DNA from: a virus
IMG/VR virus record: IMGVR_UViG_3300000228_000032
Coordinates: 1-28,106 of that record
DNA length: 28,106 nucleotides
Strand: one strand, 5' to 3'
Each line of letters starts with the position of its first letter. The stretch's first letter is position 1. The translations under genes were made by a program, and so were the position numbers. Shown one piece after another: positions 3,110 through 22,016 of the stretch. Under the pieces are notes generated by a model. It was not told the origin of the DNA. It ran no database searches and saw only the letters and a program-made list of their open reading frames with translations.

Positions 3110-3545
3110 CTTCAACTTCTTTGATTGCTGCTTTAAGTTTTTCTCTGTCTTCAAGCTTATCTTTAAGTGAAGTTATAACCTCAACACGGTTAGGAACTTT
3201 GCCTAACATAAACTCAGCTATCTCATAGAACTTGGAATAGTTACCATCTTCAGCAGCGTCTACAATCGCACGAAGAACAACCTTTTCAGGTAGTGAAAGG
3301 TTTCTGTCTTCAACCATTTTTTCAGCTTCTTCAATTGAAAGACCCATTGCCAGGTTGATAGCGTTTGTTAGTTGTGTGGCGGTGAATGCTTTGATTGCAC
3401 GTTTCTCTTTAGAGACACCATTGGGATTACCAGACTGACCTTTCTTAAATTGATGCTGCTTAGGGGGAACAGGAACGTACTTAGATTTTCTCTTAGTGAT
3501 TACTTTCTTCTTTGAAGTTTTCTTCGCTGTTACTTTCTTTGCCAT
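3099..3545 (-). CDS. DUF5681-type protein, candidate terminase small subunit
   Basis: This is 148 residues. The N-terminal ~30 residues are Lys/Ser/Thr rich, followed by HQFKKGQSGNPNG, which is the signature block of DUF5681, a family commonly encoded beside phage large terminases and inferred to be a small-subunit or packaging-associated DNA-binding protein. The rest is predicted mostly helical (SLPEKVVLRAIVDAAEDG). The basic tail would suit DNA binding. It is the first gene after the terminator at 3604-3644, so it probably heads the packaging/structural operon. The Shine-Dalgarno is poor: an AGGG abuts the ATG and another lies about nine bases further up. Function is inferred from context. 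Confidence 0.65.
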   Translation of the reverse strand: MAKKVTAKKTSKKKVITKRKSKYVPVPPKQHQFKKGQSGNPNGVSKEKRAIKAFTATQLTNAINLAMGLSIEEAEKMVEDRNLSLPEKVVLRAIVDAAEDGNYSKFYEIAEFMLGKVPNRVEVITSLKDKLEDREKLKAAIKEVEDDV

Positions 3546-3603
3546 CCCTGCTTATCCCTGAATGTAGTGATTTAATTCAGTATGAAGTAGGACGCACTAA
3601 AAG

Positions 3604-3644
3604 CAAAGACCCTTGAAGAGTCATAACTTCTTCAAGGGTCTTTG
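3604..3644 (-). terminator. Intrinsic terminator after the RHH gene
   Basis: A perfect 16-bp stem pairs 3604-3619 with 3629-3644 around a 9-base loop (3620-3628). Read on the minus strand the stem is followed by CTTTTAG, a short U tract. It lies about 45 bases past the stop of the RHH gene and before the DUF5681 gene, separating the replication-type minus genes from the packaging operon. The stem is symmetric, so it could also stop plus-strand transcription. Confidence 0.85.
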
Positions 3645-3687
3645 TTTCGATTCAGAATTGGGCCATGGAACTGAAACCCAATTGAGA

Positions 3688-7312: not shown

Positions 7313-7729
7313 TTCATTTTCCTTTGTTTAAAACACCATTTATTAAATTGCCCGATAGTAGAGTACAGTGGGGAGTAGGGCCAACTTCCCATATAGTATA
7401 TAAATACCCCCTATTTAATTTATATATTAATTTACTATCCCTTAAATTAAATACCCCTATTATTACTACTCTATTACTTTTACTACTCTACTCTACTACT
7501 TTTTACTATTTCTCCTATGAAAACATAATAAAAAATCAAGTAGAGTAGCAGAAATTTAGTAGGGCCACCAACACTACATTTTGGTGATTTTTAGTAACTT
7601 TCACTATTTTATTAAGAAGTAATTAGCGTTCAAAAAATTGCTTTTTAGGACGCTAATTAAAATCACTGTTTTTTCGATTTTACTAAAAATCATCATTCAC
7701 TACTCTACTTAGACTATTGGCCCTACTTA
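7313..7729. other. 417-base repeat-rich AT gap: candidate replication origin
   Basis: No credible gene lies here. It holds: (1) three composite elements joining AGTAGAGTA with AGTAGGGCCA, at 7357-7383, 7538-7567 and, on the opposite strand with the order swapped, 7700-7727; (2) a cluster of further CTACTCTA copies at about 7463-7500; (3) a direct repeat of AAATACCCC with flanks at about 7402-7416 and 7449-7461; (4) nested inverted repeats, 7586-7597 with 7680-7691 (12 bp) and 7620-7629 with 7650-7659 (10 bp); (5) a 6-bp hairpin 7566-7571 with 7581-7586; (6) long AT-only runs. Iterons, dyads and an AT-rich element beside the primase gene fit an origin. Promoters for the genes leftward must also be here. 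Confidence 0.5.
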
Positions 7730-10090
7730 TTAAACTTTGCCATTATAACGCCATTTCATTCTTCCATTTGAAGGGTAATTTTCTAACCCAAGTCTTCTTA
7801 AAGCATTACTTGCGTGTTGAAACTTATAAGGGTGTTTAGAAAATTCAAACAGCGGTGGTTTAATTTCTTCACCAAAGTCAGTGCTTAAAAACTCACCAAA
7901 CAGGTCTTCAAGTTTAAAAGAAAGCTTAGAAAGTTTTTGTCCTTCTTTAGCTTTTTTCTCACGTGACTTGATTACTTGTTTCCACCAACCTTTCAAGATT
8001 GAATACATAACGTCAGATTCATCTTCAATTACTCGTGAACCTTGCATGTCTTTAGACTGTTTCTCAGCTTCAGAACCTTGTGTGAAATAGTGTTTCTCGC
8101 CTAAGTCATAAGCTAGAAAAGCTTCAGCCAGTAACTGTTCTCTTTCAGCTTTCAAACCATCTAGATCAATCTCACTAACCTTGATAGGTAAGAAACGTCT
8201 ATTGCCACTTTTGTCTTTCAAGTATTCATAAGTGTTAGTAGTTCCAAAGAACACACACTGTCTTGAAAACTCAACAGGGTTTTCACCGTAAGGTGGCCTG
8301 AACTTATCAACAGTGCGAGTAAGGTAACTTTTAACAGTGTCAACGTCTGAACGTTTCAAAGAAGAAAGTTCTCCTAATTCAATGAACCAGTTACCTTGAA
8401 GAATTTGTGAAGCGTCTTTATCATGTAGGTCAGGAAGCTGGTCTAGAAACCATTTGTCTGTTGCTAGAATTTTACCGATGGTTGATTTTCCTAAACCCTG
8501 CATACCTTCAAAAATTACTGTTGTGTCAACCTTACAACCTGGTTCATATATCCTAGCGATTGCTGATATAAGAAACTTTCTTGAAACTTCAGACAAATAA
8601 GGTTCTGGTGCAATAGCATTCAGTAGGCGTTTCATCCAAGTAGACAATCTAGGAACACCATCCCATGCAGGCAAACATTCAAGGTGTTCTTTAACTGCGT
8701 GGAAACTATTCCTAGCACCAATGGCCCTAAATGCGTTTCCAATTTCTTTTAACACTGGTTCAATCTTAAACCCCGAATGGGCAAACCAAAGCCTGCAATT
8801 GATATAGTCAATGTCTTGAATCTTTTTTCCTACTTCAGACCCCCAAGGGTTTTCACAACCAAAGAAGAAAGAATGTGAAAATTCATCATACTTAATAAGA
8901 TTTTTCCCTACTGCATTTTCAAGTATAAGAACCACGTTTTTAGCAGTTGGTTTCACACTGTCGTGTTGGGTTCTATCAAGCTTCTTTCTCCAATCAACCT
9001 GACCTAAATCAGTGATGACCCTTTTAAGCTGCTTTTTCTTTTTCTCTTCAGGCAGGGTTTCATAAACTTCAACTTCACAATCAAACACGTGGGCCGCGTC
9101 TGCTTCCTGTCTAGCTTTTCTCACACAATAGTCATAGGCCCAACGTGCTGCCCTTTGACGGTTAGAAGTCTTCGCATGTTCAAAGGCAACAGACCCAATG
9201 AAGAAGTCATTGTTAGTAAGCACACCAAGAATTTGAGCGTCAGTAAACTTTGCCTTCACCATAGATAACGCTACACTTAGGCAGAATGAAGACCTATCTT
9301 CCACACCTTCACCGTCATAAATACCTTCCATGAGTGAAGGTCTTAGTTTCATTTCAAGCTGCATTTCTTCAACGTCTTCTATTTCAAATTTAGTTTTAGA
9401 ACTGCTTCCATTGGGTCTTCCTTTTGCTTTGGAAGAAGAAATGTTTTCAAGTGTTGAGCGTGTGATAATAGAAAGCTGTTCAGTGTCTTCAAGCACTCTT
9501 CCCCACCTATACGCCTTACCAGTGTCGGGGTGAATAGAAGGTGGTAAAACAACCTGCCTACCAGCACACATAAAATCAAGTTCCCATGCTGGCCTTGTTC
9601 TAATGCCTTTATCAGTCTTTTTCTTCCCAAGCTTTTCAATGTCATTCTTTGAAGGTTTAACTGAAGGCATGTGAACTTCAATTAGTTCTGAACTTGAAGT
9701 CAGCTTTCTACTATCCATCGGGTCTTGAACTAAACACCATATATGCTTTGACCCATTACCACGGCCCGAGTGTGTAACTGGTGCTGACCCTAATAAACCA
9801 GGGAAGTGTTTTTCAATCCACTCTTCAGCTTCTTTTCTGAAACGTTTATCAGTTCCCTTAATATCAACATCAATAACGGCCAGGTAGCAATCTTCAATCT
9901 TTGAAGGTTCACCAAGCTTGGTTCCAATGTTCATTCCAGTTTTATATTCTTTTAAAAGAGTTTTGATCGGTTCTCTTTTATTATCAGTCCAACCTGGTTT
10001 GAGTGGCACTTTAGAGTTTGGTCTAAGAAGGTGAACACCAAGTCCCATAGCGTGTAACCGCTTTAGTTCTCCAACTTTTGATAAACTCAT
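7730..10090 (-). CDS. Prim-pol / VirE-type primase-helicase
   Basis: A 786-residue bifunctional replication protein. The N-terminal ~210 residues form an AEP-type primase-polymerase domain: NIGTKLG (about 54-60), the catalytic DVD at about 74-76, and THSGRGNGSKHIW (about 106-118) with the conserved His. A linker of about 150 residues follows. The C-terminal half is a VirE-like P-loop ATPase: CLPAWDGVPRL (about 472-482), Walker A EGMQGLGKST (528-537), WFIELGEL as Walker B (about 568-575) and FFGTTN sensor (614-619) before GNRRFLPI. It should unwind the fork and make primers for the family A polymerase. Its ATG overlaps the HTH gene stop as ATGA. Complete, with all key residues. Confidence 0.92.
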   Translation of the reverse strand: MSLSKVGELKRLHAMGLGVHLLRPNSKVPLKPGWTDNKREPIKTLLKEYKTGMNIGTKLGEPSKIEDCYLAVIDVDIKGTDKRFRKEAEEWIEKHFPGLLGSAPVTHSGRGNGSKHIWCLVQDPMDSRKLTSSSELIEVHMPSVKPSKNDIEKLGKKKTDKGIRTRPAWELDFMCAGRQVVLPPSIHPDTGKAYRWGRVLEDTEQLSIITRSTLENISSSKAKGRPNGSSSKTKFEIEDVEEMQLEMKLRPSLMEGIYDGEGVEDRSSFCLSVALSMVKAKFTDAQILGVLTNNDFFIGSVAFEHAKTSNRQRAARWAYDYCVRKARQEADAAHVFDCEVEVYETLPEEKKKKQLKRVITDLGQVDWRKKLDRTQHDSVKPTAKNVVLILENAVGKNLIKYDEFSHSFFFGCENPWGSEVGKKIQDIDYINCRLWFAHSGFKIEPVLKEIGNAFRAIGARNSFHAVKEHLECLPAWDGVPRLSTWMKRLLNAIAPEPYLSEVSRKFLISAIARIYEPGCKVDTTVIFEGMQGLGKSTIGKILATDKWFLDQLPDLHDKDASQILQGNWFIELGELSSLKRSDVDTVKSYLTRTVDKFRPPYGENPVEFSRQCVFFGTTNTYEYLKDKSGNRRFLPIKVSEIDLDGLKAEREQLLAEAFLAYDLGEKHYFTQGSEAEKQSKDMQGSRVIEDESDVMYSILKGWWKQVIKSREKKAKEGQKLSKLSFKLEDLFGEFLSTDFGEEIKPPLFEFSKHPYKFQHASNALRRLGLENYPSNGRMKWRYNGKV

Positions 10091-10453: not shown

Positions 10454-12106
10454 ATGGAACTATCTGTCATCTATAAAAACGGTGCGTTTTTTACAATTGG
10501 GGAAACCCGTTTTGAGAACTCACCTTTTATGTTCCCTGAATATTTTCCTGGTTGGAAACAAACTAAGGAAGGTAACTACTTCACCACAAATTTAAAGAGT
10601 GCGTCCCTACTGCGTGACTATGCTGATGAAAGGGCAAAAAATATAATTAACCGCGCCTTCATTATTCACTCACCCTGGCCGGGCGCACTCACTTACCCTA
10701 AGACTTTAAAGCTTCTTCCTCACCAACCTGGTTCTGCTTACTACTCTTTATCACGTAATCGTTCTTACCTTGCACTAGCACCAGGTTTAGGTAAGACCAT
10801 TGTGGCGGCCTTGATAGCACGTGCAATGAACGTTAGATGCATTTATGTCTGCCCACCCTTTCTAACACTCAACACACTTGAAGAGTTTCAGAAGTGGGCA
10901 CCAGACCTTCACACCAGAATTCTTTCTAATGTTGATTGGGTTATACCTGACGTTTTGATTGTTCCTGATTCTCAGATAACCAATCCTTATGTGAGAAGTT
11001 ACATAAGAATGTTCTCACCTGAACTCTTCATAGGGGACGAATGGCACCGCTATAAAACTGATACTGCACAAAGGTCAAAAGCGGTTTTTGGGTTTAGAGA
11101 CAATAGACGAAAAGTTAAATACGTCCCTGGAATTATGGACGGTAAAGACTTGAAGAAGATTGTTCTCATGTCAGGCACTCCAATGCCTAACAGGCCCATG
11201 GAACTATTCAGCACCTTAAAGAAGTGTGCAGGTGAGTTCATTGACTTTAGAAGTAAGAATGATTTTGGTTTGAAGTATTGTGACGGGTTCCTAACCAAGA
11301 ATGAATGGACGGGCCAGGCCTACGGTTATGACTTCACGGGGTGTAACGAAAAAGAGTTCAAACTTCTAATGAACAAAGTGAAGTCTAAGGTTTCCTTCCA
11401 CTACCCTGATAAAGAAATTGAAACTTCTAACAATGGTTTCATGCTTCGTCTTGATAAAAAGATTCTTGGTTTACCACCACTCACTGAAGAGATAGTTATT
11501 CTTGGTGAAGACATGCCTAGAGCGTTGAAGGGAATGGACGCTGAAATGCTTAGGAAGTATTCACCTAAAGACCTTATCAAGTTGAGAATGAAAATACTTT
11601 TAGGTGAATCTGATGATGAAGAAGACATTCACCTAATGACCTATAGAAGAATGCTTGGTGAGTATAAAGTCAAACCAGCGTGTGAGTTCATTAAATCAAT
11701 CTTAGAAGAGACTGAAGAGAACCTTTTAATAGTGGCCATTCATAAAGAAGTGATTCGCGCCACCGCTGAACGTTTGAGTGACTACAACCCGTTAGTCATA
11801 ACTGGTGACACACCATCAATGAAGCGTCAGAAGATTGTTAAGGAATACCAGACCAGTAAGAAGAGAAGAATCATTCTAGGAAACGAAGACGCTATAGGTG
11901 TTGGGTTCACCATCACTAAAGCAAACAGAATACCCTTGATTGAATTTGACTGGTCACCTGGTAAGAACAGGCAGGTCATTGACCGTGCCCACCGTTACGG
12001 GTTAGAGCATGACCTGTTGGCCCAATACCTTTGTTTTAGAAACTCACTTGATAGAACCACAATTGAAACCCTTCTCTATAAAGAGAAGATAACTAGCTAC
12101 GTCTAA
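10454..12106 (+). CDS. SNF2-type DEAD/DEAH-box helicase
   Basis: A 550-residue superfamily 2 ATPase that heads the plus-strand operon. It shows motif I LAPGLGKTIVA (about 108-118), motif II GDEWH (194-198), motif III VLMSGTPMPNRP (237-248), and in the second RecA domain VITGDTPSMKRQ, ILGNEDAIGVGFT and motif VI QVIDRAHRYG. These are SNF2-like phage helicase features; likely roles are remodelling forks, replication initiation or recombination. The N-terminal ~85 residues (FMFPEYFPGWKQTKEGNYF) are a family-typical HARP-like lead-in. The Shine-Dalgarno is weak (GAGTG, about nine bases away), unlike the next genes. All motifs intact. Confidence 0.9.
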   Translation: MELSVIYKNGAFFTIGETRFENSPFMFPEYFPGWKQTKEGNYFTTNLKSASLLRDYADERAKNIINRAFIIHSPWPGALTYPKTLKLLPHQPGSAYYSLSRNRSYLALAPGLGKTIVAALIARAMNVRCIYVCPPFLTLNTLEEFQKWAPDLHTRILSNVDWVIPDVLIVPDSQITNPYVRSYIRMFSPELFIGDEWHRYKTDTAQRSKAVFGFRDNRRKVKYVPGIMDGKDLKKIVLMSGTPMPNRPMELFSTLKKCAGEFIDFRSKNDFGLKYCDGFLTKNEWTGQAYGYDFTGCNEKEFKLLMNKVKSKVSFHYPDKEIETSNNGFMLRLDKKILGLPPLTEEIVILGEDMPRALKGMDAEMLRKYSPKDLIKLRMKILLGESDDEEDIHLMTYRRMLGEYKVKPACEFIKSILEETEENLLIVAIHKEVIRATAERLSDYNPLVITGDTPSMKRQKIVKEYQTSKKRRIILGNEDAIGVGFTITKANRIPLIEFDWSPGKNRQVIDRAHRYGLEHDLLAQYLCFRNSLDRTTIETLLYKEKITSYV

Positions 12107-12117
12107 AGGAGACTTGC

Positions 12118-12624
12118 ATGAAATTCGCACTGACAGACCTGACTAAAGAAGAACTTGAAGCTGCCCAAGAAGCTGTTGAATCACTAAGTGGTTCTTCAAA
12201 GAAGACTTCTAAGAAAACTTCTAAAAAGGTTTCTAAGAAGAAAGTAGAAGAGGAAGAAGAGGAAGAGGAAGAAGTTGATTTTGACGAAGAAAATGAAGAA
12301 GAGGAAGAGGAAGAAAACGAAGAGGAAGAAGAGGAAGAGGGCGAAGAAGAGGAAGAAGAAGAAACTGAAGAAGAAGAGGAAGAAACTCCTAAAAAGAAAG
12401 TCTCTAAAAAGACTACTGGCAAAACAACTTCTTCAAAGGTTTCAAAAGAAGACGTGATGAATGCGTTTCAAGCTACACACAAACGTCTAGCTAAAAAGCT
12501 TAAGTCAGACGATAAGGCCCAAGCTAAATTGAATGCACTTCTTAAGAAGCACGGTGCGAAGTCTACACGCACACTAGACGCGAAGAAGTACGCAACAGTT
12601 ATGAAGGAACTTAAAGCACTTTAA
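12118..12624 (+). CDS. Low-complexity acidic/basic protein with small C-terminal domain
   Basis: 168 residues in four parts: a short N-terminal helix (LTKEELEAAQEAVESL), a basic KKTSKKTSKKVSKKK block (about 29-44), a Glu run of about 45 residues broken by Asn, Asp, Gly and Thr, a second KKKVSKK block, and a compact helical end (VMNAFQATHKRLAKKL to MKELKAL). AAAGGAG precedes the ATG. Alternating charge blocks suggest a disordered, DNA- or SSB-associated protein. The end of the Glu run and the following TPKKK are identical at DNA level over 30 bases to the tail of the SSB gene (12370-12399 and 17655-17684). No function recognised. Confidence 0.75.
   Translation: MKFALTDLTKEELEAAQEAVESLSGSSKKTSKKTSKKVSKKKVEEEEEEEEEVDFDEENEEEEEEENEEEEEEEGEEEEEEETEEEEEETPKKKVSKKTTGKTTSSKVSKEDVMNAFQATHKRLAKKLKSDDKAQAKLNALLKKHGAKSTRTLDAKKYATVMKELKAL
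12247..12399 (+). repeat. GAA/GAG low-complexity tract
   Basis: Purine-only GAA/GAG triplet run coding for the Glu block of the 168-residue protein. Its last 30 bases (12370-12399) are identical to 17655-17684 in the SSB gene. Confidence 0.85.
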
Positions 12625-12630
12625 CAATTA

Positions 12631-12762
12631 TAACTCACCATGAGAGTTCTGTTTTAGACTTAAAACGTGGGCATACAAAAGTGAGTTACCAGGGCGAAGA
12701 CCAGCGAAGTAACGTAACGTCTTAGGGCCTGAACACTAGCGCAGCTAGTACCCCTGGTTTTT
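12631..12762 (+). ncRNA. Structured intergenic RNA, family unknown
   Basis: The 152-base gap before 12777 folds into ordered helices: P1 12631-12638 with 12681-12688 (8 bp, perfect), enclosing a 6-bp hairpin 12651-12656 with 12661-12666; then P2 12689-12694 with 12752-12757 (CCAGGG/CCCTGG), enclosing P3 12697-12701 with 12719-12723 and P4 12735-12740 with 12744-12749 (loop GCA). P2 is directly followed by five T. P1 and P2 abut, so they may stack coaxially. The last element doubles as an intrinsic terminator, so this may be a riboswitch-like attenuator, a processed small RNA or an elaborate terminator. No known family recognised. Confidence 0.55.
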
Positions 12763-12776
12763 AAAAGGAATTTAAA

Positions 12777-13181
12777 ATGAACTTAGTAGACGAAAATGGA
12801 AAAGACTTAAGCACTATTCCAATGAAACTAACAGACGCTTCAGGTGAAGAACTTTCAAGTGAACCACCAAAGAAGATGACCACTAAAGAAATTGGTTCTG
12901 ACCTTGCGGCCCACATGTTGAACGCAGCTTTGAACATGCCAAACAATGAAGCAATCAATGGTCAGTTTGATGTTCTTTACCATGCAGCTTTAAACATTCT
13001 TGGGCATAGAATCTTAAACGTGGGTCTTGGGTTTGAGAATGCAAACAGCATTATTGAATGGGACGCTTCACGTGCTTTTGTTCATGAGAAGGAAGTTCAA
13101 GAAGATTTATCTAAATACGTTGAAGAATGGAAACAGAAGTTTATGAATGGTGAACTTCAATACCATGCTGGTAAGAAATAA
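12777..13181 (+). CDS. Unknown 134-residue protein
   Basis: Unrecognised. A hydrophilic N-terminus (NLVDENGKDLSTIPMKL) is followed by a helical core (SDLAAHMLNAALNMP, FDVLYHAALNILGHRILNVG) and a charged C-terminal helix (EVQEDLSKYVEEWKQKF). AAAGGA precedes the ATG, directly after the structured RNA at 12631-12762, so this gene is the likeliest target if that RNA regulates in cis. No signal peptide or membrane span. Confidence 0.75.
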   Translation: MNLVDENGKDLSTIPMKLTDASGEELSSEPPKKMTTKEIGSDLAAHMLNAALNMPNNEAINGQFDVLYHAALNILGHRILNVGLGFENANSIIEWDASRAFVHEKEVQEDLSKYVEEWKQKFMNGELQYHAGKK

Positions 13182-13206
13182 AATCTTTTAAACATGGAAG
13201 TTATGA

Positions 13207-13437
13207 ATGAAAACAGTAATACAAACTTCAAACGATGTTGGAAACTTTTTGAAAGCTGCTAGAGAAAAGGCAGGTATGACCCAAGACCAGGTTTCTAAAC
13301 GGTCAGGGTTCACCAATCAAACTATTTACAACATGGAAAATAACAAAGGCAGTTTGAACCTAAGCACCGTGCTTGCTATTGCAACGTCAATAGGTGTGAA
13401 GATTGAACTCAACTATGAAAAGGGATTATCAGCATGA
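13207..13437 (+). CDS. XRE-family helix-turn-helix regulator
   Basis: 76 residues, almost all one HTH_3 domain: VGNFLKAAREKAGMTQDQVS, then KRSGFTNQTIYNMEN as the recognition region, NLSTVLAIATSIGVKIEL as the closing helices. This is the HipB/antitoxin-like or phage repressor-like fold, without a second domain. The ATG at 13207 has GGAAG seven bases upstream. It overlaps the next gene by 4 bases. No toxin-like partner is next to it. It is the second HTH protein in the window, so it could modulate the plus operon, but no operator is evident. Confidence 0.85.
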   Translation: MKTVIQTSNDVGNFLKAAREKAGMTQDQVSKRSGFTNQTIYNMENNKGSLNLSTVLAIATSIGVKIELNYEKGLSA

Positions 13438-13832
13438 CAACAGAAGAAACACGTATTCCATTCACGTCACCACTTACTGACTATGAAATGGAACTTTTAA
13501 ACTACTCTGACTTTAAAGAGTTCAAGAAACAGTTTCCAGTTTCAACCACCATTGTAAATTTCATGAATATCTTTCTGGCCGTCAGAACCTATTTAGAAAA
13601 TGTCATGTCACAAACCTATGGTGAAGTTAGGGAAGGCCATAAGAAACACGCATGGTTGAATCAAAAGATTCATGACATGTTGAAATTCAATTCAGGTGCT
13701 TTAATGCAGCAGAAAATTTTGGAACATAGAAAACAAATTGAACAACCTTTTCCAGAAACAGCTTCAGAGCAAATTGCAGAAGACACAACAGGCGGAAGAA
13801 GATTTAACGTTGTTCCTGGTAGTGAAGTATGA
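13434..13832 (+). CDS. Unknown 132-residue protein
   Basis: Unrecognised. It begins MTTEETRIPFTSPLTDYEME and is mainly helical (SDFKEFKKQFPVSTTIVNFM, IFLAVRTYLENVMSQ), with a Gly/Arg-containing tail (DTTGGRRFNVVPG). It overlaps the XRE gene and the next membrane gene by 4 bases each (ATGA), so the three are translated together. No membrane span is convincing. Function unknown. Confidence 0.7.
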   Translation: MTTEETRIPFTSPLTDYEMELLNYSDFKEFKKQFPVSTTIVNFMNIFLAVRTYLENVMSQTYGEVREGHKKHAWLNQKIHDMLKFNSGALMQQKILEHRKQIEQPFPETASEQIAEDTTGGRRFNVVPGSEV

Positions 13833-14020
13833 AGTGTATAACATTCAGTATAACATTCAGTATAATATTATTTTTCAATGGTTTAATTTCTGGTTACTAC
13901 TCACATGAAATTATTCTTAAGCATAGAAAAAGTCAGTGTGAAATTAATGGTGGTTACTATGATGGTAAGTGTTTTAACTTTTCATTCCATAGAAAAACTA
14001 AGAAGGCGAATGACAAGTGA
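13829..14020 (+). CDS. 63-residue single-span membrane microprotein
   Basis: Residues about 3-22 (CITFSITFSIILFFNGLISG) form one membrane segment directly after the start, likely a signal anchor. The rest is basic and has a Cys pair (SQCEINGGYYDGKCFNF) resembling a small disulfide loop, which would be periplasmic if the protein is oriented Nin. A 12-base exact tandem duplication (13838-13861) encodes ITFS twice within the span. It overlaps neighbours by 4 bases on each side. No family recognised. Confidence 0.65.
   Translation: MKCITFSITFSIILFFNGLISGYYSHEIILKHRKSQCEINGGYYDGKCFNFSFHRKTKKANDK
13838..13861 (+). repeat. 12-base tandem duplication inside a coding region
   Basis: ATAACATTCAGT occurs twice head to tail, in frame, in the membrane span of the 63-residue protein. 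A recent slippage event is the simple explanation. Confidence 0.8.
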
Positions 14021-14787
14021 CAATTAACACCAACACTTCAGAAGAAAAGAAACATGCTGAGTTTGGGGGTTCCCAAGCTGAAAGAATTTTGAACTGCCCT
14101 GGCTCAGTTCGCCTTTCACGTGGCATTCCTAACAAAGATAATGAAGCTTCTAAGAAGGGAACAGACGCACACGCCTGCGTTGAATTCTTTATTAGAAACC
14201 ATAAGAAGCTTAATAACAAAACCCAGCGTAAAAAAGTCATAGAGAAGGCAGAAGAGAAGTGGTCAGAAGAAATGATAGACAACGCTCTAAACGCGCTTGC
14301 ATGGGTGAAAGACCAACTTCAACCTGCTTCTAAAGTATTTGTAGAAGCACACCTTGATTCTTCTGCCTTCACCACTGAAGGTCAGTTTTCAACACTAGAC
14401 ATTGCCATAGCAAACTTCAGGGCACGTGAACTTATCATTGCTGACTTTAAGAATGGAACTCACCCTGTTGAAGTTAAAAATAATTCTCAGTTGATTTACT
14501 ACGCGCTAGCCATGCTTATTAAGCTTAAAGGCTTTAAGAAGTTTGACCGTATTCGATGCGTGATTATCCAACCAAATGCCCACCACAAAGATGGTGAAAT
14601 TCGTGAATGGTATATAACTGTTGAAGACGCTATCAAGTGGGGTAAGCGTTTCAGGAAGACAGTTAAGATAGCGTTGAAACCAAAGGCACCATTAAAGTAT
14701 GGTGATAAGTGGTGTTTCTTTTGTCTCGCTAAAAAGAAGTGCCCGATTATAAAACAAAAACAAGCTGCAAAAGAATTTGCAGACTGA
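14017..14787 (+). CDS. DUF2800 RecB/Cas4-like nuclease with Fe-S-type cysteines
   Basis: 256 residues. Nuclease-core features in order: GTDAHACVE (H52), FVEAHLD (E110), STLDIA (D128), IADFKNGT (D143, K145) and QLIYYALA (Q158, Y161), the H...E...D...DxK...QxxxY pattern of RecB-family exonucleases. One Cys near the N-terminus (C27, ILNCPGS) plus C233-x2-C236-x5-C242 (WCFFCLAKKKCP) match the four-cysteine layout that binds a 4Fe-4S cluster in AddB, Dna2 and Cas4. It likely processes DNA ends for recombination with the SSB. The start is GTG at 14017 overlapping the previous stop (GTGA), with AAGG about ten bases upstream. Confidence 0.82.
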   Translation: MTINTNTSEEKKHAEFGGSQAERILNCPGSVRLSRGIPNKDNEASKKGTDAHACVEFFIRNHKKLNNKTQRKKVIEKAEEKWSEEMIDNALNALAWVKDQLQPASKVFVEAHLDSSAFTTEGQFSTLDIAIANFRARELIIADFKNGTHPVEVKNNSQLIYYALAMLIKLKGFKKFDRIRCVIIQPNAHHKDGEIREWYITVEDAIKWGKRFRKTVKIALKPKAPLKYGDKWCFFCLAKKKCPIIKQKQAAKEFAD

Positions 14788-14804
14788 ACATTATTAGGAG
14801 TTAT

Positions 14805-16643
14805 ATGGCAATCATGCAAACTTATCAATTTGACAATAGTGCAAACTATGTTTTGAACAACACTGTAACTGAAGGCAGTAAAGCTAAACTTGCTTTAATT
14901 CCAAACCCTGGCCAGGTATTCGCCCAAGACTTTTCAAGTGATGTTGGGTTCACCTATGACAACACTAAGGTTGAATTTGTAGGTGGGGTTATGAGGCAGA
15001 AAGACCAGACACCTACTAACTCTATTTTAGGTGGTAAGTTTTCTTCAACTAAGAATCTGAACTGGTTTAAAAACGGTGCTTCTACAACAGGTATTGAAAC
15101 AGGAACTACAACACTAACAGGTGGTAAGTTAAACTGTCTTGATTTTGGCAATAACTCAATGAGGTTTACCGATGCTTCAATTGGAAACCTTGGAGACATT
15201 GGAACACTTAAATTCAAATACACGCCAAACTATTCAGGAACACCAGCACAAAACGTTAACATGGTTGAAATGTCACCGCCTTCAGGTACTAACAGCACCA
15301 TGCTTATTTTTCACTCTTCAACAGGAACAGTGAGGTTAACAGCATACACTTCAGTAGGAACAGCTAAACATGCTGCTGTTGCCTTTGGTGCTGTATGGTC
15401 ACCTGTTGCTGGTACTGAATATGAAATTGAACTTGATTGGGACACGGTAGCAGGTCAGGTTAGATTATTTATAAATGGCGTTTTACAAGGTTCAATGGTG
15501 GTTTCTTCTTATGCACGTGGAACGTCAGCAACGCGAATATTTGTAGGTGCAGGAACAACTTACCCCGTAGCAAATGGTTCTTTCAGTGATGTTGTTTGTT
15601 TTTCTACTGTTCAACACACTTCAGGCTACACACCTGGTTACACTCTTCCTGCTTACATTTATCTTGGTTCACTCGTTAACGGGCCAAACTTCACTTATAC
15701 AGGTGTTGGGTCAGTTCTTTCAATTGATAGTGGGGACGTGTCTGAAGTAGGTGTTCCACGTTATATAATTGGTCTTAGGTATTGGAATGGCACCGCATGG
15801 GTTATTTCAAATAATTCTTATGCTCAGGCCAATGACTTTGCAACAGCACTTGCACACTTAGACGAGTTTGTAGCTTCAGGTGGGGTTCTGCCCTGGTCAG
15901 TTGTGTTCACTGATTCAAACCCTATTTCAAGCATTGATGAATTTGAAGTGGTTGTTACTGGTCAGAAATATTCACCAACAGGTTACCTTGAACCAGTGCA
16001 GGCCCTTCAGGTAGCAGAAATTCTTTCTTACTCCCATACAACAGTTGAAGACCTAGGCACGTCAGTCAAAGTCATTCTGAAAATAGATGGTGTGCTTAAG
16101 TATTGGAATGGAACAGCTTGGGTTACTTCTAATGGAACTGAAGCGCAAGCAAACACTGCTACTGACGTAAATGCTAACTTAGATGAACTAGATTTAGGAG
16201 TAAACTCTTCTGTCTTCATAAGATGGTTGTTATCAACATCGGTTGAAAATGATTCACCTGAAATTGATTCGTCAGTTGTCCATTACAACTTTGGTGCTGT
16301 TGAAACACCGCTTTCAACTTGTATTGTGTTCGGTTACTTGAAAGACATTACTGACACACCAGTAGTAGGTGCTTCAATTAAGTTTGAATTGAATCAGAAA
16401 AACAAGTTCTTCAAAGAAGCAAATAACAATGTGATTGGAACAGGAAGTGTAACTGTCACTACTGACGTGAATGGTTACTTCTCAGTTCCACTTGTTAGAT
16501 CAAGCGAGTTTGACGGTGAGACAACCTATAAGCTGACCATCACTATTGGTTCAATTGTCATCTTAAAGAACAGCGCAGGTTATATAACGTTCACTGTTCC
16601 TGATTCTGAAACAAAAGACATTACTGATTTAGTAGCAGCATAA
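14805..16643 (+). CDS. Large LamG-like, structural-looking protein
   Basis: I start at ATG 14805, which has TTAGGAG six bases upstream; an in-frame ATG 66 bases earlier lies inside the nuclease gene and lacks support. The 612-residue product has: an N-terminal all-beta part; a concanavalin/LamG-like domain (about residues 130-280: YEIELDWDTVAGQVRLFING); two related modules each containing YWNGTAWV (about 325 and 432); and a C-terminal Ig/carboxypeptidase-regulatory-like domain (SIKFELNQ, TTDVNGYFSVPL). This composition suits a fibre, decoration or receptor-binding protein. Yet it sits in the replication operon, on the opposite strand to the visible tail genes. Function inferred. Confidence 0.7.
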   Translation: MAIMQTYQFDNSANYVLNNTVTEGSKAKLALIPNPGQVFAQDFSSDVGFTYDNTKVEFVGGVMRQKDQTPTNSILGGKFSSTKNLNWFKNGASTTGIETGTTTLTGGKLNCLDFGNNSMRFTDASIGNLGDIGTLKFKYTPNYSGTPAQNVNMVEMSPPSGTNSTMLIFHSSTGTVRLTAYTSVGTAKHAAVAFGAVWSPVAGTEYEIELDWDTVAGQVRLFINGVLQGSMVVSSYARGTSATRIFVGAGTTYPVANGSFSDVVCFSTVQHTSGYTPGYTLPAYIYLGSLVNGPNFTYTGVGSVLSIDSGDVSEVGVPRYIIGLRYWNGTAWVISNNSYAQANDFATALAHLDEFVASGGVLPWSVVFTDSNPISSIDEFEVVVTGQKYSPTGYLEPVQALQVAEILSYSHTTVEDLGTSVKVILKIDGVLKYWNGTAWVTSNGTEAQANTATDVNANLDELDLGVNSSVFIRWLLSTSVENDSPEIDSSVVHYNFGAVETPLSTCIVFGYLKDITDTPVVGASIKFELNQKNKFFKEANNNVIGTGSVTVTTDVNGYFSVPLVRSSEFDGETTYKLTITIGSIVILKNSAGYITFTVPDSETKDITDLVAA

Positions 16644-16674
16644 GCTGCATAACACACTCACAAAGGAGAAACCA

Positions 16675-16815
16675 ATGAGTGAAGCAGAAAAGAAAGTTAA
16701 AAAGAAACCAGCAAAGAAAGTAGCGAAGAAGGCAGTTAAAAAAGCCTCTAAGAAGAAAGCTGCTAAAAAGGTGGCAAAGAAAATTGCGAAGAAGAAAGCA
16801 GTAAAAAAGTCTTAG
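16675..16815 (+). CDS. Histone-H1-like Lys/Ala-rich microprotein (46 residues)
   Basis: Translation from ATG 16675 gives MSEAEKKVKKKPAKKVAKK and continues as KKA/KKV repeats to a TAG at 16813-16815. About half the residues are Lys and most of the others Ala or Val; only three acidic residues, all at the N-terminus. AAAGGAG lies eight bases upstream, a strong Shine-Dalgarno. The PAKKVAKKA pattern is like the tails of histone H1, bacterial Hc1 and AlgP, which bind DNA without sequence preference. It directly precedes the SSB gene. Likely role: DNA compaction or charge partner of the acidic proteins nearby. Confidence 0.75.
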   Translation: MSEAEKKVKKKPAKKVAKKAVKKASKKKAAKKVAKKIAKKKAVKKS

Positions 16816-16824
16816 AAATTAAGC

Positions 16825-16885
16825 TAACAGTAGCGGTTCCTTCCCATACGTGTATGGGAAGACCTTACTGCTACTGTTACTTTTT
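16825..16885 (+). terminator. Strong two-part hairpin with U tract
   Basis: Outer stem 16825-16834 with 16870-16879 (10 bp), a short GGT/ACC helix, and inner stem 16840-16849 with 16852-16861 (CTTCCCATAC/GTATGGGAAG), followed by TACTTTTT. An efficient intrinsic terminator or a stable 5' structure of the SSB leader; it lies between the H1-like gene and the SSB gene. Confidence 0.75.
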
Positions 16886-16887
16886 AA

Positions 16888-16922
16888 ACGAGCAAAACAA
16901 CTAAAACGAGCAATACGAGCAA
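16888..16922 (+). repeat. ACGAGCAA repeats in the SSB leader
   Basis: ACGAGCAA occurs at 16888, 16906 and 16915, with a partial AAACGAAAA next. The run is U-poor and G/C-poor, so it should stay single-stranded, and it ends at the Shine-Dalgarno AAGGAAAAG of the SSB gene. This could be a translational operator for the SSB. Confidence 0.5.
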
Positions 16923-16940
16923 AACGAAAAGGAAAAGTGT

Positions 16941-17711
16941 ATGGCATTCAAACTGCACCCCAAGGCAAAGACTAAGGGAGAAATTGAAATTAAGGACGTG
17001 AAGTTAACAACAGGTGAACTTCGTTTATCTTACCCCCACCTATTCAAACCTAATAAGTTTGAAGGGTCAGATAAAGAATCATGGTCATGTCAGCTTCTAG
17101 TGTCTAAAGACGATAACATTGGAGAACTTGAAAGAATTGCACACAACGCTGCAATTAAAGAGTGGGGGCCTGACACTTCAAAATGGCCTTCAAAGAAAAT
17201 CAAGTCAAAGAAAAACCCTGGCAAATTTATCACGAAGTCACTGGTTAAAATGCCATTCCGTGATGGTGACGAAGAAAAGCCTGACCATCCTGAATATGAC
17301 AACATGACGTTCTTTTCAGCTTCAAAGAACACCATCAATTTTAAAGGTGAAGAAGTTGAAGCACCCCAAGTGGTTGACAGAAACAAAGAACCAATTGACC
17401 AAAAGAAAATCAAGGCCGGTGATTACGTCAGAGTTTCGATTATCGCTATCGCTTATGAAACTGGTAAGAACATCGGTGTTAAGTTCTATCTCAACATGGT
17501 TCAAAAACTTCGCAATGGTGAACCTCTAGGCAATTCTGGTTCACCTGATTCTGAGTTTGATGACCTTGAAGAACTTGATGAAGAGTTAGACGGGGAAGAA
17601 AACGAAGAAGAGGAAGAAGAAAACGAAGAGGAAGAAGAGGAAGAAGAGGAAGAGGAAGAAGAGGAAGAAACTCCTAAAAAGAAAACATCTAAGAAAAAAT
17701 ACAGCTACTAA
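16941..17711 (+). CDS. Single-stranded DNA-binding protein, DUF2815 family
   Basis: 256 residues. The OB-fold region runs from about 15 to 195: KDVKLTTGELRLSYPHLFKP, ESWSCQLLVSKDD, KWPSKKIKSKK, VKMPFRDGDEEK, YDNMTFFSASK, AGDYVRVSIIAIAYETG, IGVKFYLNMVQKL; this is the DUF2815 pattern known from phage SSBs next to DUF2800 nucleases. A Glu/Asp tail follows (about 205-244), the usual protein-interaction tail of SSBs, but it ends in a basic TPKKKTSKKKYSY instead of an acidic tip. It should coat single strands for the polymerase and the nuclease. AAGGAAAAG precedes the ATG. Its leader is unusual (see neighbours). Confidence 0.88.
   Translation: MAFKLHPKAKTKGEIEIKDVKLTTGELRLSYPHLFKPNKFEGSDKESWSCQLLVSKDDNIGELERIAHNAAIKEWGPDTSKWPSKKIKSKKNPGKFITKSLVKMPFRDGDEEKPDHPEYDNMTFFSASKNTINFKGEEVEAPQVVDRNKEPIDQKKIKAGDYVRVSIIAIAYETGKNIGVKFYLNMVQKLRNGEPLGNSGSPDSEFDDLEELDEELDGEENEEEEEENEEEEEEEEEEEEEEETPKKKTSKKKYSY
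17594..17684 (+). repeat. GAA/GAG low-complexity tract in the SSB gene
   Basis: Encodes the Glu-rich tail of the DUF2815 SSB. Shares an exact 30-base block with 12370-12399, extending past the Glu codons into the TPKKK coding part, so it is more than simple codon bias. Confidence 0.85.
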
Positions 17712-17719
17712 AGAAATTC

Positions 17720-17745
17720 GCGGTGGGGTAATTCCCACCGCTTTT
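17720..17745 (+). terminator. Intrinsic terminator after the SSB gene
   Basis: GCGGTGGG (17720-17727) pairs with CCCACCGC (17734-17741) over loop GTAATT, then TTTT. It is placed nine bases past the SSB stop and just before the next Shine-Dalgarno, so it probably makes the SSB mRNA more abundant than the downstream polymerase mRNA. Confidence 0.85.
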
Positions 17746-17756
17746 AAAGGAACAAA

Positions 17757-17969
17757 ATGATTAGCGGTGTGACTATAAAAACTTCTCAAGGCAGTGCTGC
17801 TTATTGTCTTGATTGCAAAGAATATAGATCAACAGTTTTAGTTCAAATGAACTTCAAACAGCTTGATAAAAACGAGTATAAGACCGTTATCAAATGTTCA
17901 GATTGCAATTCTCGAAACCTTAAAATACTTGAATCAAACACTGGTTTAAAAGCTAGAACGGAAACTTAA
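17757..17969 (+). CDS. 70-residue zinc-ribbon microprotein
   Basis: YCLDCKEYRS (about 16-25) and KCSDCNSRN (about 46-54) give two CxxC pairs about 27 residues apart, enough for one zinc ribbon, with beta-prone residues between (TVLVQMNF, EYKTVIK). AAAGGA precedes the ATG. The TAA is immediately followed by the polymerase ATG, so translation is probably coupled. No further family can be assigned. Confidence 0.75.
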   Translation: MISGVTIKTSQGSAAYCLDCKEYRSTVLVQMNFKQLDKNEYKTVIKCSDCNSRNLKILESNTGLKARTET

Positions 17970-20042
17970 ATGTACTCTGAAAAACAAGTATTCATGGTTT
18001 ACGATTATGAAACTTTTAGTGAAGTAGACTTAAAAAAATGTGGAAGTTGGGAATACTCTGTTCACCCTTCAACAGAAGTGCTTTGTGTTTCTTGGATGGT
18101 TGGCACCAGGAAGCAGCTTGAACGTCAATTAAAAAACAAAGTCAAAGCACAATCATGGGCACCAAAAAGAAAATGGAATGCCCACCGTAAAGATATAAGA
18201 AAGGGAAGAACCTTTGCTGGTCTTCTGAAAGATAAAACCATTATTAAAGTTGCCCACAATTCAATGTTTGAACAGGCCATTACAAGAAACGTTCTTCCAA
18301 GACATTTAAGTAAGTTCATTGGTAAAGTACCATTTATAATTCCTCATGAGCAGTTTCTATGCACTGCTGTTCAGTCAGCTTCACATGCTATTCCACGTTC
18401 CCTAGATGGTGCTACTGGTGCATTGAAGTTGAATCATGCAAAAGATAAAGACGGTCATAGGCTTATGCTTAAGTGGGCAAAGCCTAAGAAACCTTCTAAA
18501 GCTGACCCTTCAACTAGATATACAAAAGACTTTGATAGGCTTTTAAAATATTGTGAACATGACATTTATGCTGAAGTTGGATTGTTCACCAGACTTGATT
18601 TACCTACACCTAGTGAAAGGTCACTATGGTTGTTTGACCAGATTATAAACTTCAGAGGAATAAAGGTTGACCGTGATTTAGTTAAGAAGACACTCAAACT
18701 AATTGGTGAAGAGAAAGCACTTCTAACAAAAGACCTAAGACGTTTAACAAATAACTTTGTTCAAACAGCAGGGCAGAAGAAAGTTCTACATACCTGGTTA
18801 AAAACCAAAGGTGTTACTCTTCCAAACCTTCAAGGTAAGACAGTTGAAGCGGCCATTAAAGACGGGACTATTCAAGGAACAGCAAAAGCAGTTCTTCTAA
18901 TCTGTCAGAAGCTTAATAAAACTTCTCTTAAAAAATATACTGCATTCCTTCACCATACTGCTTCAGACGGTAGAATGCGCTTCAGTCTAAACTTCAATGC
19001 TACTGTTCACGGTAGGTGGGGTGGTGCTGGTGTTCAACCGCATAACTTCCCACGTGGAACTCTTAAATACAAAGATGAAAATGGTAATGAGCATGACCTT
19101 GCACCATACGCTGCTGAACTAATCAAGAAAGGCACTTCACTTGAAATGATTAGAACTCTGTTTGGTGACCCAACAGAAGTGTTTGTTTCATGCCTTCGCA
19201 CAATGATTATTCCTTCAGAAGGGAATGAACTATTTGTTTCAGACTTTTCTGCCATTGAAGCACGTGTTCTATTTTGGCTTGCAGACCATAAGAAAGGTGT
19301 AGAAGGTTTTAGAAATAAGAAAAAGTTTTATGAAGAACTAGCAGCAGTAATTTTCAACCACCCTGAAATTTTAGACGTTTTAAAAGATGAACGTTTTGTA
19401 GGTAAGCAAGCATTCCTTGGTTCCGGTTACGGTATGGGATGGAAGAAGTTTCAAAAAACATGTGAAGACTTTGGCCAGGCCATTACAGTTGAAGTAGCTA
19501 AAAAAGCTATTGAAGCTTATAGGAGACTACACAAACCAGTTGTTAAACTTTGGAACAACCTTGAACAGGCAGCAATCAAAGCAGTTCAAAACCCCGGAAA
19601 AACTTTTAAAGTGAACAATACTGAGTGGTTTATCAAAGGTAAGTTCCTGGTGTGCAGACTACCTTCAGCACGTTGCCTTTATTATTACGGGCCTCAAGTT
19701 AAGAGTCAGAGAACACCATGGGGTGCAAACAAACCTGTTCTTTATCATTGGACGGTTGATAGCAAAACAAAGAAGTGGGTGTTCACCAAAACGTGGGGTG
19801 GCGTTTTAACTCAAAACTGCGTAGGTGGTATTTCACGTGACCTGCTGGCCGCTTCAATGGTTAGACAGGAAAAGCATGGTTACAAAGTGGCACTGACTGT
19901 TCACGATGAAAACGTTTGTGAAAGAAAGAAAGGTGAAGGTAACATAGAAGAGTTCAATAAATTAATGCGTACAATACCAGCATGGGCACGTGGGGTTCCT
20001 ATGGCCGCGGAAGGTTTTGTAGGTGATAGGTATAGGAAGTAA
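17970..20042 (+). CDS. Family A DNA polymerase
   Basis: The 690-residue replicative polymerase with 3'-5' exonuclease. Exonuclease: motif I DYETFSEVDL (D12, E14), motif II AHNSMFEQ (N97; E101 where Pol I has D424), motif III YCEHD (Y194, D198). Polymerase: HGRWGGAGVQPHNFPRG (about 347-363), motif A SDFSAIEAR (D425, E430), motif B R475, K479 and Y487 in the O-helix, motif C TVHDE (H645, D646, E647). The residue at the position of E. coli Pol I F762 is Leu (L483). No 5' nuclease domain, as usual for phage Pol A. It pairs with the prim-pol/VirE primase-helicase and the DUF2815 SSB. Confidence 0.95.
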   Translation: MYSEKQVFMVYDYETFSEVDLKKCGSWEYSVHPSTEVLCVSWMVGTRKQLERQLKNKVKAQSWAPKRKWNAHRKDIRKGRTFAGLLKDKTIIKVAHNSMFEQAITRNVLPRHLSKFIGKVPFIIPHEQFLCTAVQSASHAIPRSLDGATGALKLNHAKDKDGHRLMLKWAKPKKPSKADPSTRYTKDFDRLLKYCEHDIYAEVGLFTRLDLPTPSERSLWLFDQIINFRGIKVDRDLVKKTLKLIGEEKALLTKDLRRLTNNFVQTAGQKKVLHTWLKTKGVTLPNLQGKTVEAAIKDGTIQGTAKAVLLICQKLNKTSLKKYTAFLHHTASDGRMRFSLNFNATVHGRWGGAGVQPHNFPRGTLKYKDENGNEHDLAPYAAELIKKGTSLEMIRTLFGDPTEVFVSCLRTMIIPSEGNELFVSDFSAIEARVLFWLADHKKGVEGFRNKKKFYEELAAVIFNHPEILDVLKDERFVGKQAFLGSGYGMGWKKFQKTCEDFGQAITVEVAKKAIEAYRRLHKPVVKLWNNLEQAAIKAVQNPGKTFKVNNTEWFIKGKFLVCRLPSARCLYYYGPQVKSQRTPWGANKPVLYHWTVDSKTKKWVFTKTWGGVLTQNCVGGISRDLLAASMVRQEKHGYKVALTVHDENVCERKKGEGNIEEFNKLMRTIPAWARGVPMAAEGFVGDRYRK

Positions 20043-20043
20043 A

Positions 20044-20175
20044 ATGGGTGACGTAATTAAGGGGTGGTTTAGATGTTTAAACTGCAACAGGATAATTAAG
20101 AAACTAACTTTTTGCCCAAGTTGTTTAGTAATCGCTATAGCTGCAAAAAAGGTAAAACATGGAAACAGGAATTAA
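20044..20175 (+). CDS. 43-residue zinc-ribbon microprotein
   Basis: From ATG 20044, one base after the polymerase stop, the frame reads MGDVIKGWFRCLNCNRIIKK, LTFCPSCLVIAIAAKK and ends with TAA at 20173-20175, overlapping the next gene by 17 bases. CLNC and CPSC are nine residues apart, a minimal zinc knuckle. The end of the polymerase gene (ATAGGAAG) supplies a Shine-Dalgarno. Too short for family assignment, but cysteine spacing this regular is unlikely by chance. Confidence 0.6.
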   Translation: MGDVIKGWFRCLNCNRIIKKLTFCPSCLVIAIAAKKVKHGNRN

Positions 20176-20353
20176 AATTAAGTCTGCTAGAAACATTCAC
20201 ATTGAAAAGATTTTCAAGTTTCTTGAGAACTTAAACATTAAGAGCAGGAAGACAGAAGAGTTCCTTGATTCAATTCAGGAATTTTATCTAGAAAAAGGTT
20301 TCTTAACTGATAAGCAGTATGAAGCACTGTTGAACATTTATGAACGTATTTAA
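20159..20353 (+). CDS. 64-residue helical protein, unknown
   Basis: METGIKIKSARNIHIEKIFK, then alternating charged helices (LENLNIKSRKTEEFLDSI, GFLTDKQYEALLNIYERI). The C-terminal LTDKQYEALLNI is a short helical module seen in many phage microproteins. AAAAGGTAAAAC precedes the ATG. No motif gives a function. Confidence 0.65.
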   Translation: METGIKIKSARNIHIEKIFKFLENLNIKSRKTEEFLDSIQEFYLEKGFLTDKQYEALLNIYERI

Positions 20354-20373
20354 AAAAATAAAAGGAGTTAGTC

Positions 20374-20604
20374 ATGACGTGCAAGGAAGTTCGTCTAGGT
20401 TGGGAAGAGTCACAAAAACACTATCACGCCATTAGTGAGATAGAAGATAAGCACCTACCACCTGACTATGTTAAAGTGTCTAAGAGTCAAAAGAAGAAAC
20501 TAGAAGTGAAAGTTCATAATGAAACGAATGAATATTTGCGAAGAAATGAAATGGTCTACCGTGATGGTGGGTTCTATATAACAGTGATGGTGAGTGATGA
20601 CTAA
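20374..20604 (+). CDS. 76-residue charged protein, unknown
   Basis: MTCKEVRLGWEESQKHYHAI, then a basic stretch (KVSKSQKKKLEVKVHNET) and an aromatic end (VYRDGGFYITVMVSDD). AAAGGAG lies eight bases before the ATG. It overlaps the next membrane gene by 8 bases. No family recognised. Confidence 0.65.
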   Translation: MTCKEVRLGWEESQKHYHAISEIEDKHLPPDYVKVSKSQKKKLEVKVHNETNEYLRRNEMVYRDGGFYITVMVSDD

Positions 20605-20758
20605 GTTTGATTTTTGGTTTGGATTGTTTTTATTTGTTTCTATCATGGGAATTAGCAGCAGACTTTCTTATATAGCAGGAATGCAATCTGAAAAGTTTGA
20701 CCGTGAACATGCAAACAAAAAGCTTCAAGACTGTATTGACGTTATAGTAAAGAAATAG
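20597..20758 (+). CDS. 53-residue signal-anchored microprotein
   Basis: From ATG 20597: MTKFDFWFGLFLFVSIMGIS, then SRLSYIAGMQSEKFD, REHANKKLQDCIDVIVKK and TAG at 20756-20758. One N-terminal membrane span followed by a charged, coiled-coil-prone helix with one Cys. The start lies inside the previous gene (8-base overlap, TGATGACTAA), typical coupling. It has the general design of a tiny inner-membrane spanin-like or signal-anchored protein, but it is far from the lysis cassette, so no role is assigned. Confidence 0.6.
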   Translation: MTKFDFWFGLFLFVSIMGISSRLSYIAGMQSEKFDREHANKKLQDCIDVIVKK

Positions 20759-20768
20759 TGGTGTGTAT

Positions 20769-20981
20769 ATGAAGGTATGTAAAGATTGCTATGCTGAACT
20801 AACTAAAGTTGAATTAGCGTTCAATACTGGTAAATGTTCCGACTGCCAACCATCTAAAAAGAAAGATGACTTCCCTAAAAACCCCAAGAAAGGTTTTGAA
20901 TGGTATGGCCCTAAACCAGGTGAAAAAGTTGTATGGGAAAACGTCCCTTCACCTTATAAGGCCTACAAAGATGGTGTTTAA
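20769..20981 (+). CDS. 70-residue zinc-ribbon microprotein
   Basis: I start at ATG 20769; a GTG two codons upstream is possible, and neither has a strong Shine-Dalgarno. MKVCKDCYAEL and TGKCSDCQPSKKK give CxxC pairs about 17 residues apart. The C-terminal half is Pro/Lys/Trp rich (GFEWYGPKPGEKVVWENV) and probably extended. The stop TAA shares its last base with the next ATG. Confidence 0.65.
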   Translation: MKVCKDCYAELTKVELAFNTGKCSDCQPSKKKDDFPKNPKKGFEWYGPKPGEKVVWENVPSPYKAYKDGV

Positions 20982-21190
20982 TGAATAAGAGTAAAGTTCT
21001 TATATGGCGTTATGGGAATAAAGAACCAGACGAATGCCCAATGGTCATAAGTCATGCTTCAGAAGAACTTCCTAAGTTCATTAAACTTGCTTCCTTTGAA
21101 CACTCTAATCTTCTTTATTTCAAACTCATTGATCTTATCATCGGTGGTCACCCCGTCTATTATGAAACATTTTGGAGTTCACAACCATGA
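20981..21190 (+). CDS. 69-residue protein, unknown
   Basis: MNKSKVLIWRYGNKEPDECP, then SHASEELPKFIKLAS and a hydrophobic segment (LLYFKLIDLIIGGHPVYY) too mixed to be a clear membrane span. It joins the previous gene through TAATG and the next through ATGA. Function not recognised. Confidence 0.6.
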   Translation: MNKSKVLIWRYGNKEPDECPMVISHASEELPKFIKLASFEHSNLLYFKLIDLIIGGHPVYYETFWSSQP

Positions 21191-21399
21191 CACCTTTTCA
21201 TGACCACCCTAATTTTAAACCATGCCACACTTGCAAAGAAAGAATGGCCCATGTTAGTGAATTGAACTGTCACCAATGCAAAGAAGATAAAAAGATAACT
21301 AAGTTCCTAGCACCATTCAAAGTTCCTGAAGGTAAGCTGTTAGATGAACACTTATTCCCTATAACCCAAAATGTTTTACCATTGACACCAAAGCAATAG
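21187..21399 (+). CDS. 70-residue zinc-ribbon microprotein
   Basis: The start is taken at ATG 21187, which overlaps the preceding stop as ATGA; an in-frame upstream ATG at 21172 would lie within that gene without a Shine-Dalgarno. KPCHTCKERM and LNCHQCKEDKK give CxxC pairs about 14 residues apart, then a Pro-rich, hydrophobic tail (LAPFKVPEGKLLDEHLFP). Another member of the short zinc-ribbon set that ends this operon. Confidence 0.65.
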   Translation: MTPFHDHPNFKPCHTCKERMAHVSELNCHQCKEDKKITKFLAPFKVPEGKLLDEHLFPITQNVLPLTPKQ

Positions 21400-21416
21400 T
21401 TTTAAAAACTCATGGG

Positions 21417-22016
21417 ATGAAAAAAACATTTATCCTATTGTTCTCTGTTCTTATTACTACTCAAACCGCTTTTTCACGTGGGTCACCCCCACCTGTTAAA
21501 GTGCCGCCTTCCCCACCAGTTAGTGTTCCTTCTGAAGTGGTAAAAGGAATTCGTTTTTCACCAGTGGTTAATTACACTACTGACGAAAAGGCAGTTCTGG
21601 CCGTTTCTGAAAAGCTTGCAAATGATCTAGTGCAGTCTTCTTGTTTTGAAAACTTTATGAAGATGCGAAGTCTCATAGACACAAATGGAATGACTGCTGA
21701 ACAAGTAGTGGTGAAGTTGAAGACAACTAACCTAGCTGTTCCTGTTGAAATGTATTACAAAAGATTTTCAAACGTTGTAGGTTACCGTCAACCACCGGCC
21801 CTTAACATTTACACAAATAGAAAATTCCATGCAGGTGCAACAGCATGTTCACGTGGTTCAAACCTAACCCATGAATGGTCACACTCAGTAGGCTTTGACC
21901 ATAGCTATCAGGCCACTGTCTTACGCCCAAGGTCTGTTCCCTATTCAATCAATGCTGCTTTTGAAGCGTGTTGTATTTGTGAGAAGAATTCAATTTTGAA
22001 ATGTTCAATTAAGTAA
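21417..22016 (+). CDS. Secreted metzincin-like zinc metalloprotease
   Basis: 199 residues with a Sec signal peptide (MKKTFILLFSVLITTQTAFS, predicted cut near residue 20), a Pro-rich linker (about 23-39), then a compact domain with ETWS-type zinc motif THEWSHSVGFDH (about 151-162), an exact HExxHxxGxxH signature of the metzincin superfamily. Cysteines near 76, 144, 185-188 and 196 could form disulfides outside the cytoplasm. A canonical Met-turn is not obvious in the short C-terminus (SVPYSINAAFEACC). It ends the plus operon. The Shine-Dalgarno is poor. Secretion implies action in the periplasm or outside: cell-surface proteins, superinfection or release. Unusual for a phage. Confidence 0.75.
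   Translation: MKKTFILLFSVLITTQTAFSRGSPPPVKVPPSPPVSVPSEVVKGIRFSPVVNYTTDEKAVLAVSEKLANDLVQSSCFENFMKMRSLIDTNGMTAEQVVVKLKTTNLAVPVEMYYKRFSNVVGYRQPPALNIYTNRKFHAGATACSRGSNLTHEWSHSVGFDHSYQATVLRPRSVPYSINAAFEACCICEKNSILKCSIK

Follow-up and report, generated by a model that had tools for sequence, protein, structure and literature searches.

A terminator-like stem with a predicted branched interior downstream of the acidic gene of a phage contig

The window considered in this study is the whole of virus record IMGVR_UViG_3300000228_000032, a phage contig of 28,106 bases. Its plus strand carries a run of genes from 10454 to 22016 that includes those for a helicase, an acidic protein, a protein of 134 amino acids, an HTH regulator, an exonuclease, a Gp2.5-like SSB and a DNA polymerase. 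The element of interest lies in the 152-nt gap between the stop of the acidic gene at 12624 and the ATG of the 134-aa gene at 12777. The gene directly upstream (12118–12624, plus strand) is an open reading frame for an acidic/basic protein of 168 aa, whose C-terminal domain identifies this locus across related phages. The gene downstream (12777–13181, plus strand) falls in no family, and a weak homologue occupies the same position in the related phage L002 (26% identity over 106 aa, E = 4e-10). The ATG is preceded by the Shine-Dalgarno region AAAAGGAATTTAAA (12763–12776, plus strand), which abuts the T-run at the end of the element. This layout of hairpin, T-run, Shine-Dalgarno region and ATG is common to L002 and is seen again inside the window, with AAAGGAA, at 17720–17757. 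A search for tRNA and tmRNA genes found none. Farther along, GTATAACATTCA is repeated 2.8 times at 13836–13869, where it overlaps the promoter-like sequence that matched best (ATAACA-17-TATAAT).

The minimum free energy (MFE) structure of 12631–12762, on the plus strand, has a value of −36.2 kcal/mol and consists of two domains, the second of them built around a three-way junction. The first domain, P1 (12631–12688), forms with a pairing probability of about 1.0. It is closed by the inverted repeat TAACTCAC/GTGAGTTA (12631–12638/12681–12688), whose 8 bp are the longest unbroken helix of the element, and it encloses a GUUUUA/UAAAAC hairpin (GTTTTA/TAAAAC in the DNA, 12651–12656/12661–12666). 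GUUUUAGA...UAAAAC bears some likeness to CRISPR repeats, but this amounts to no more than a 16-nt hairpin. The second domain, P2 (12689–12757, a span of 70 nt), is closed as folded by CCAGGG/CCCTGG (12689–12694/12752–12757), within a 7-bp inverted repeat, ACCAGGG/CCCTGGT (12688–12694/12752–12758). Inside the junction are hairpins at about 12697–12723 and 12735–12749, the latter made by ACTAGC/GCTAGT (12735–12740/12744–12749). Five T's (12758–12762) follow the P2 stem directly. The coordinates, pairings and two-domain fold given in a preliminary description of this DNA are borne out by the inverted repeats and the MFE structure.

The same description took the complementarity to be more ordered than a plain terminator would have. 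This part is not supported. The z-score of 12631–12762 (−1.59) is near the range of shuffled sequence: 17 of 200 shuffles fold equally well, repeat runs give z from −1.4 to −1.8, and about 15% of the 132-nt windows in a scan of the contig reach z ≤ −1.6. Taken alone, P1 scores −2.4 to −2.6 and P2 −1.0, and the reverse complement of the element is as stable as the element itself (−36.5 kcal/mol, z −1.49). The modest global values, the value for P2 and the equally good fold of the reverse strand are what one might see if the gap were intergenic DNA without RNA function, its complementarity accidental or arising from DNA-level sites. I nonetheless consider such a chance fold quite unlikely, because hairpins recur at this site in related phages, as described below, and because the position of the stem relative to the T-run is unusual. 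By criteria picked after the sequence was seen, 0.4% of 3000 shuffles have a stem of 6 bp or more, 5 or more of them GC, that runs exactly up to the T-run, and 0.7% combine two top-level domains with a multibranched stem, again of 6 bp or more, that reaches the T-run. It is the rarity of a GC-rich stem ending exactly at a T-run that makes a terminator-like role credible, and here the preliminary description, which had the element ending like a terminator, was right.

Sequence and structure searches give the element no relatives. Rfam 15 produced no match at gathering score in the window and none at E ≤ 10 for 12600–12800, as expected from the earlier statement that it belongs to no recognised family. 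Blastn against phage DNA (two queries) and plasmid DNA collections returned nothing meaningful. Scanning IMG/VR for the P2 stem and its five T's, in the form ACCAGGG-N50-74-CCCTGGTTTTT, brought up 21 contigs, about the number expected by chance on a rough estimate, and none is alike beyond the pattern. A covariance model run over 122 sources, together about 1.3 Mb from related loci, recovered only the element itself, though a model built on one sequence detects only fairly close relatives. With no homologue from the structure, DNA or pattern searches, a new family of structured RNA is not supported. A type III toxin-antitoxin locus (ToxIN/AbiF-like) was also considered and rejected: such loci likewise place a structured RNA before a small open reading frame, but here the RNA has no tandem repeats, the 134-aa protein falls in no toxin family, and the homologue in L002 has no such RNA.

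Two structured places in other contigs came to light in the course of this work. Positions 4750–4920 of L020 (the same in L021) contain a P1-like hairpin, a branched fold closed by CAGGG/CCCTGG and five T's, and are missing from the related L023; the plan is alike by eye, yet there is no match in sequence or to the covariance model, and the place was not accepted as a homologue. In L009, the stretch 7502–7762, between phage genes, holds a tRNA-Met gene (identified by Rfam and ARAGORN) and, behind it, highly structured DNA of about 180 nt with GGCTTTTT at its end; this second part has no Rfam match.

More is learned from the site itself in related phages. Scans with the helicase, polymerase, exonuclease and acidic genes found the acidic gene at high identity only in L002 and L004 (62% and 59%, respectively, over about 60 aa). 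The polymerases of these two closest relatives are 72% and 58% identical to that of the window, and L002 also has the HTH gene (36% identity). A scan of a genome collection with the helicase turned up distant relatives only. The 71-nt gap of L002 contains a single 12-bp hairpin, GTGGGGTGGGCTTGCTGGTTCACCCCAC, with arms GTGGGGTGGGC/TTCACCCCAC, followed by TTTAAAAAGGAATGTATG. In L004 there is again a simple hairpin, CTACACCGCTTTG/CAAAGCGGTGTAG, then TTTTTT; CTACACCGCTTTG...CAAAGCGGTGTAGTTTTTTGGGG stands ahead of the ATG in the arrangement T6-GGGG-ATG (the ATG, at 2246, was picked by hand since GGGG precedes it). Homologous gaps lacking compensatory changes had been named beforehand as evidence against a structured RNA, and these two syntenic gaps, with a simple hairpin instead of the fold, come close to that.

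An HMM of the C-terminal domain of the acidic gene found the gene after a helicase in about 20 further phages, in many of which the next gene starts within a few bases. Thirteen phages, including that of the window, have 40 nt or more between the genes at this point, and in 10 of the 13 the gap holds a hairpin with z ≤ −2, as against 23% of 44 control gaps (other co-directional gaps in the same and related loci). The median hairpin z is −2.92 after the acidic gene and −0.65 in the controls (Mann-Whitney p = 9e-5); the window's own gap has the third weakest z of the 13. The sequences and shapes of the hairpins vary from phage to phage. In L136, the gap after the acidic gene (2427–2679, 253 nt; −93.8 kcal/mol, z −3.9) contains several successive strong stems, the first branched, and has no match in Rfam.

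These observations point to an ordinary element of known kind whose branched shape, though unusual, is unproven: probably a leaky intrinsic terminator internal to the rightward operon, separating the acidic gene from the one that follows it. RNA polymerase, having transcribed the helicase and acidic genes, would meet the P2 stem and U5, where a fraction would stop, and the remainder would read on into the Shine-Dalgarno region of the 134-aa gene that directly abuts the U-run. The P2 stem would at the same time form the 3' boundary of the upstream mRNA, and the element may also be described as an mRNA boundary hairpin, which in this phage takes the form of a branched stem behind the acidic gene. 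P1 and the branching inside P2 are best read as a local embellishment of this phage, not as a conserved RNA.

The element resembles operon-internal or attenuating intrinsic (rho-independent) terminators in that a GC-rich stem runs straight into a T-run between co-directional genes, at a place where relatives carry ordinary hairpins. It differs from them in that P2 closes a three-way junction and not a small loop, that a 58-nt hairpin domain abuts it on the 5' side, and that termination here, with its efficiency and its role in setting (lowering) downstream expression, is predicted. P2 lacks the compact hairpin (loop of 3–8) of the consensus, and a consensus terminator scan omits it. Since such a loop is typical of terminators but not obligatory, the claim made here is that the element would work like a terminator. 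Also against termination are the length of the T-run, only five, and a competing hairpin of nearly equal energy that forms before P2.

The mixed quality of the T-runs among relatives bears on a different account, in which P1 and P2 would serve as a double-stranded site or as a barrier just ahead of the Shine-Dalgarno region, trimming the mRNAs on either side and protecting them. The RNase III sites between the early genes of T7 are double-stranded processing sites, and like them the element is a structured intergenic one just before a ribosome-binding site, with irregular stems. Several of the syntenic hairpins, moreover, are followed by poor T-runs (L008, L015, L023, L002), for which reason some of them may be processing or stability hairpins and not terminators. 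For the element itself this account is unlikely: a T-run lies directly 3' of the stem here and in L004 and L017, and the helices are short, with nothing like the long irregular duplex of the T7 sites. A literature search on branched terminators and T7 RNase III sites yielded nothing usable.

The competing hairpin is an alternative stem, CAGG/CCTG (12690–12693/12728–12731, plus strand), which excludes P2 and forms earlier during transcription, being present by 12730 in folds of the growing transcript. Its fold is nearly isoenergetic with that containing P2 (−35.7 vs −36.2 kcal/mol). With the native sequence to 12776 included, the comparison becomes −37.6 vs −36.2, the MFE structure lacks P2, and the probability of P2 goes from 0.90 (folding to 12762) to 0.47. 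This competition could make the terminator leaky.

A regulated switch through the CAGG:CCTG alternative is only a possibility. It would take the form of a phage-specific regulatory leader, with CAGG:CCTG as antiterminator and P2 as terminator, in which a ligand, a protein or ribosome stalling decides whether transcription stops or reads through into the 134-aa gene. As in terminator/antiterminator riboswitches and leaders, the two folds exclude each other and one of them has a stem at the T-run; their energies lie within about 1.5 kcal/mol, and P1 forms a stable domain of its own. Chance RNA, however, often has alternatives of nearly equal energy, and the element, unlike the known riboswitches and leaders, has no Rfam match, no conserved aptamer and no homologue with its fold, while the syntenic gaps of L002 and L004 have simple hairpins. 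I therefore regard such a leader as very unlikely, and still more so a riboregulatory leader in which the early antiterminator and the branched terminator are tuned in this way to control the downstream Cro/CI-type regulator as well as the 134-aa gene. The switch originally proposed, in which AGGG (12724–12727) would compete for the 3' strand of P2, fails on energy: pairing of AGGG with CCCT is about 7 kcal/mol worse and has a probability of 0.0. Its partner would, besides, be the CCCCTGG strand that P2 uses beside the T-run, so AGGG would itself build a terminator-shaped stem and not an antiterminator.

If the terminator reading is correct, it shows no more than that diverse environmental phages keep a hairpin or terminator behind one conserved acidic gene although the sequence and shape of that hairpin change freely. 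This would help to annotate the operons of these phages and would counsel caution before a lone branched fold is named a new RNA family. A switch, if there is one, would give the phage a regulatory RNA that has no known relative.

The contig scan also shows places in the window with stronger folds, for example 3521–3652 (z −8.8), 7569–7700 (z −6.8) and 16765–16896 (z −5.4). Positions 3546–3687 form a very strong hairpin (z about −8.8 in the scan) whose stem, AAAGACCCTTGAAGA/TCTTCAAGGGTCTTT, is almost perfect; it is probably a terminator between minus-strand genes. The AT-rich gap of 290 nt at 7437–7729 has repeated TAGTAGAGTAGT-like motifs, long inverted repeats on the minus strand and TRF arrays at 7457–7508, and is possibly a replication origin or a regulatory region. 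At 16826–16927, before the Gp2.5-like gene, a AACAGTAGC...GCTACTGTT hairpin and a T-run are followed by about 4.7 copies of AAACGAGCA.
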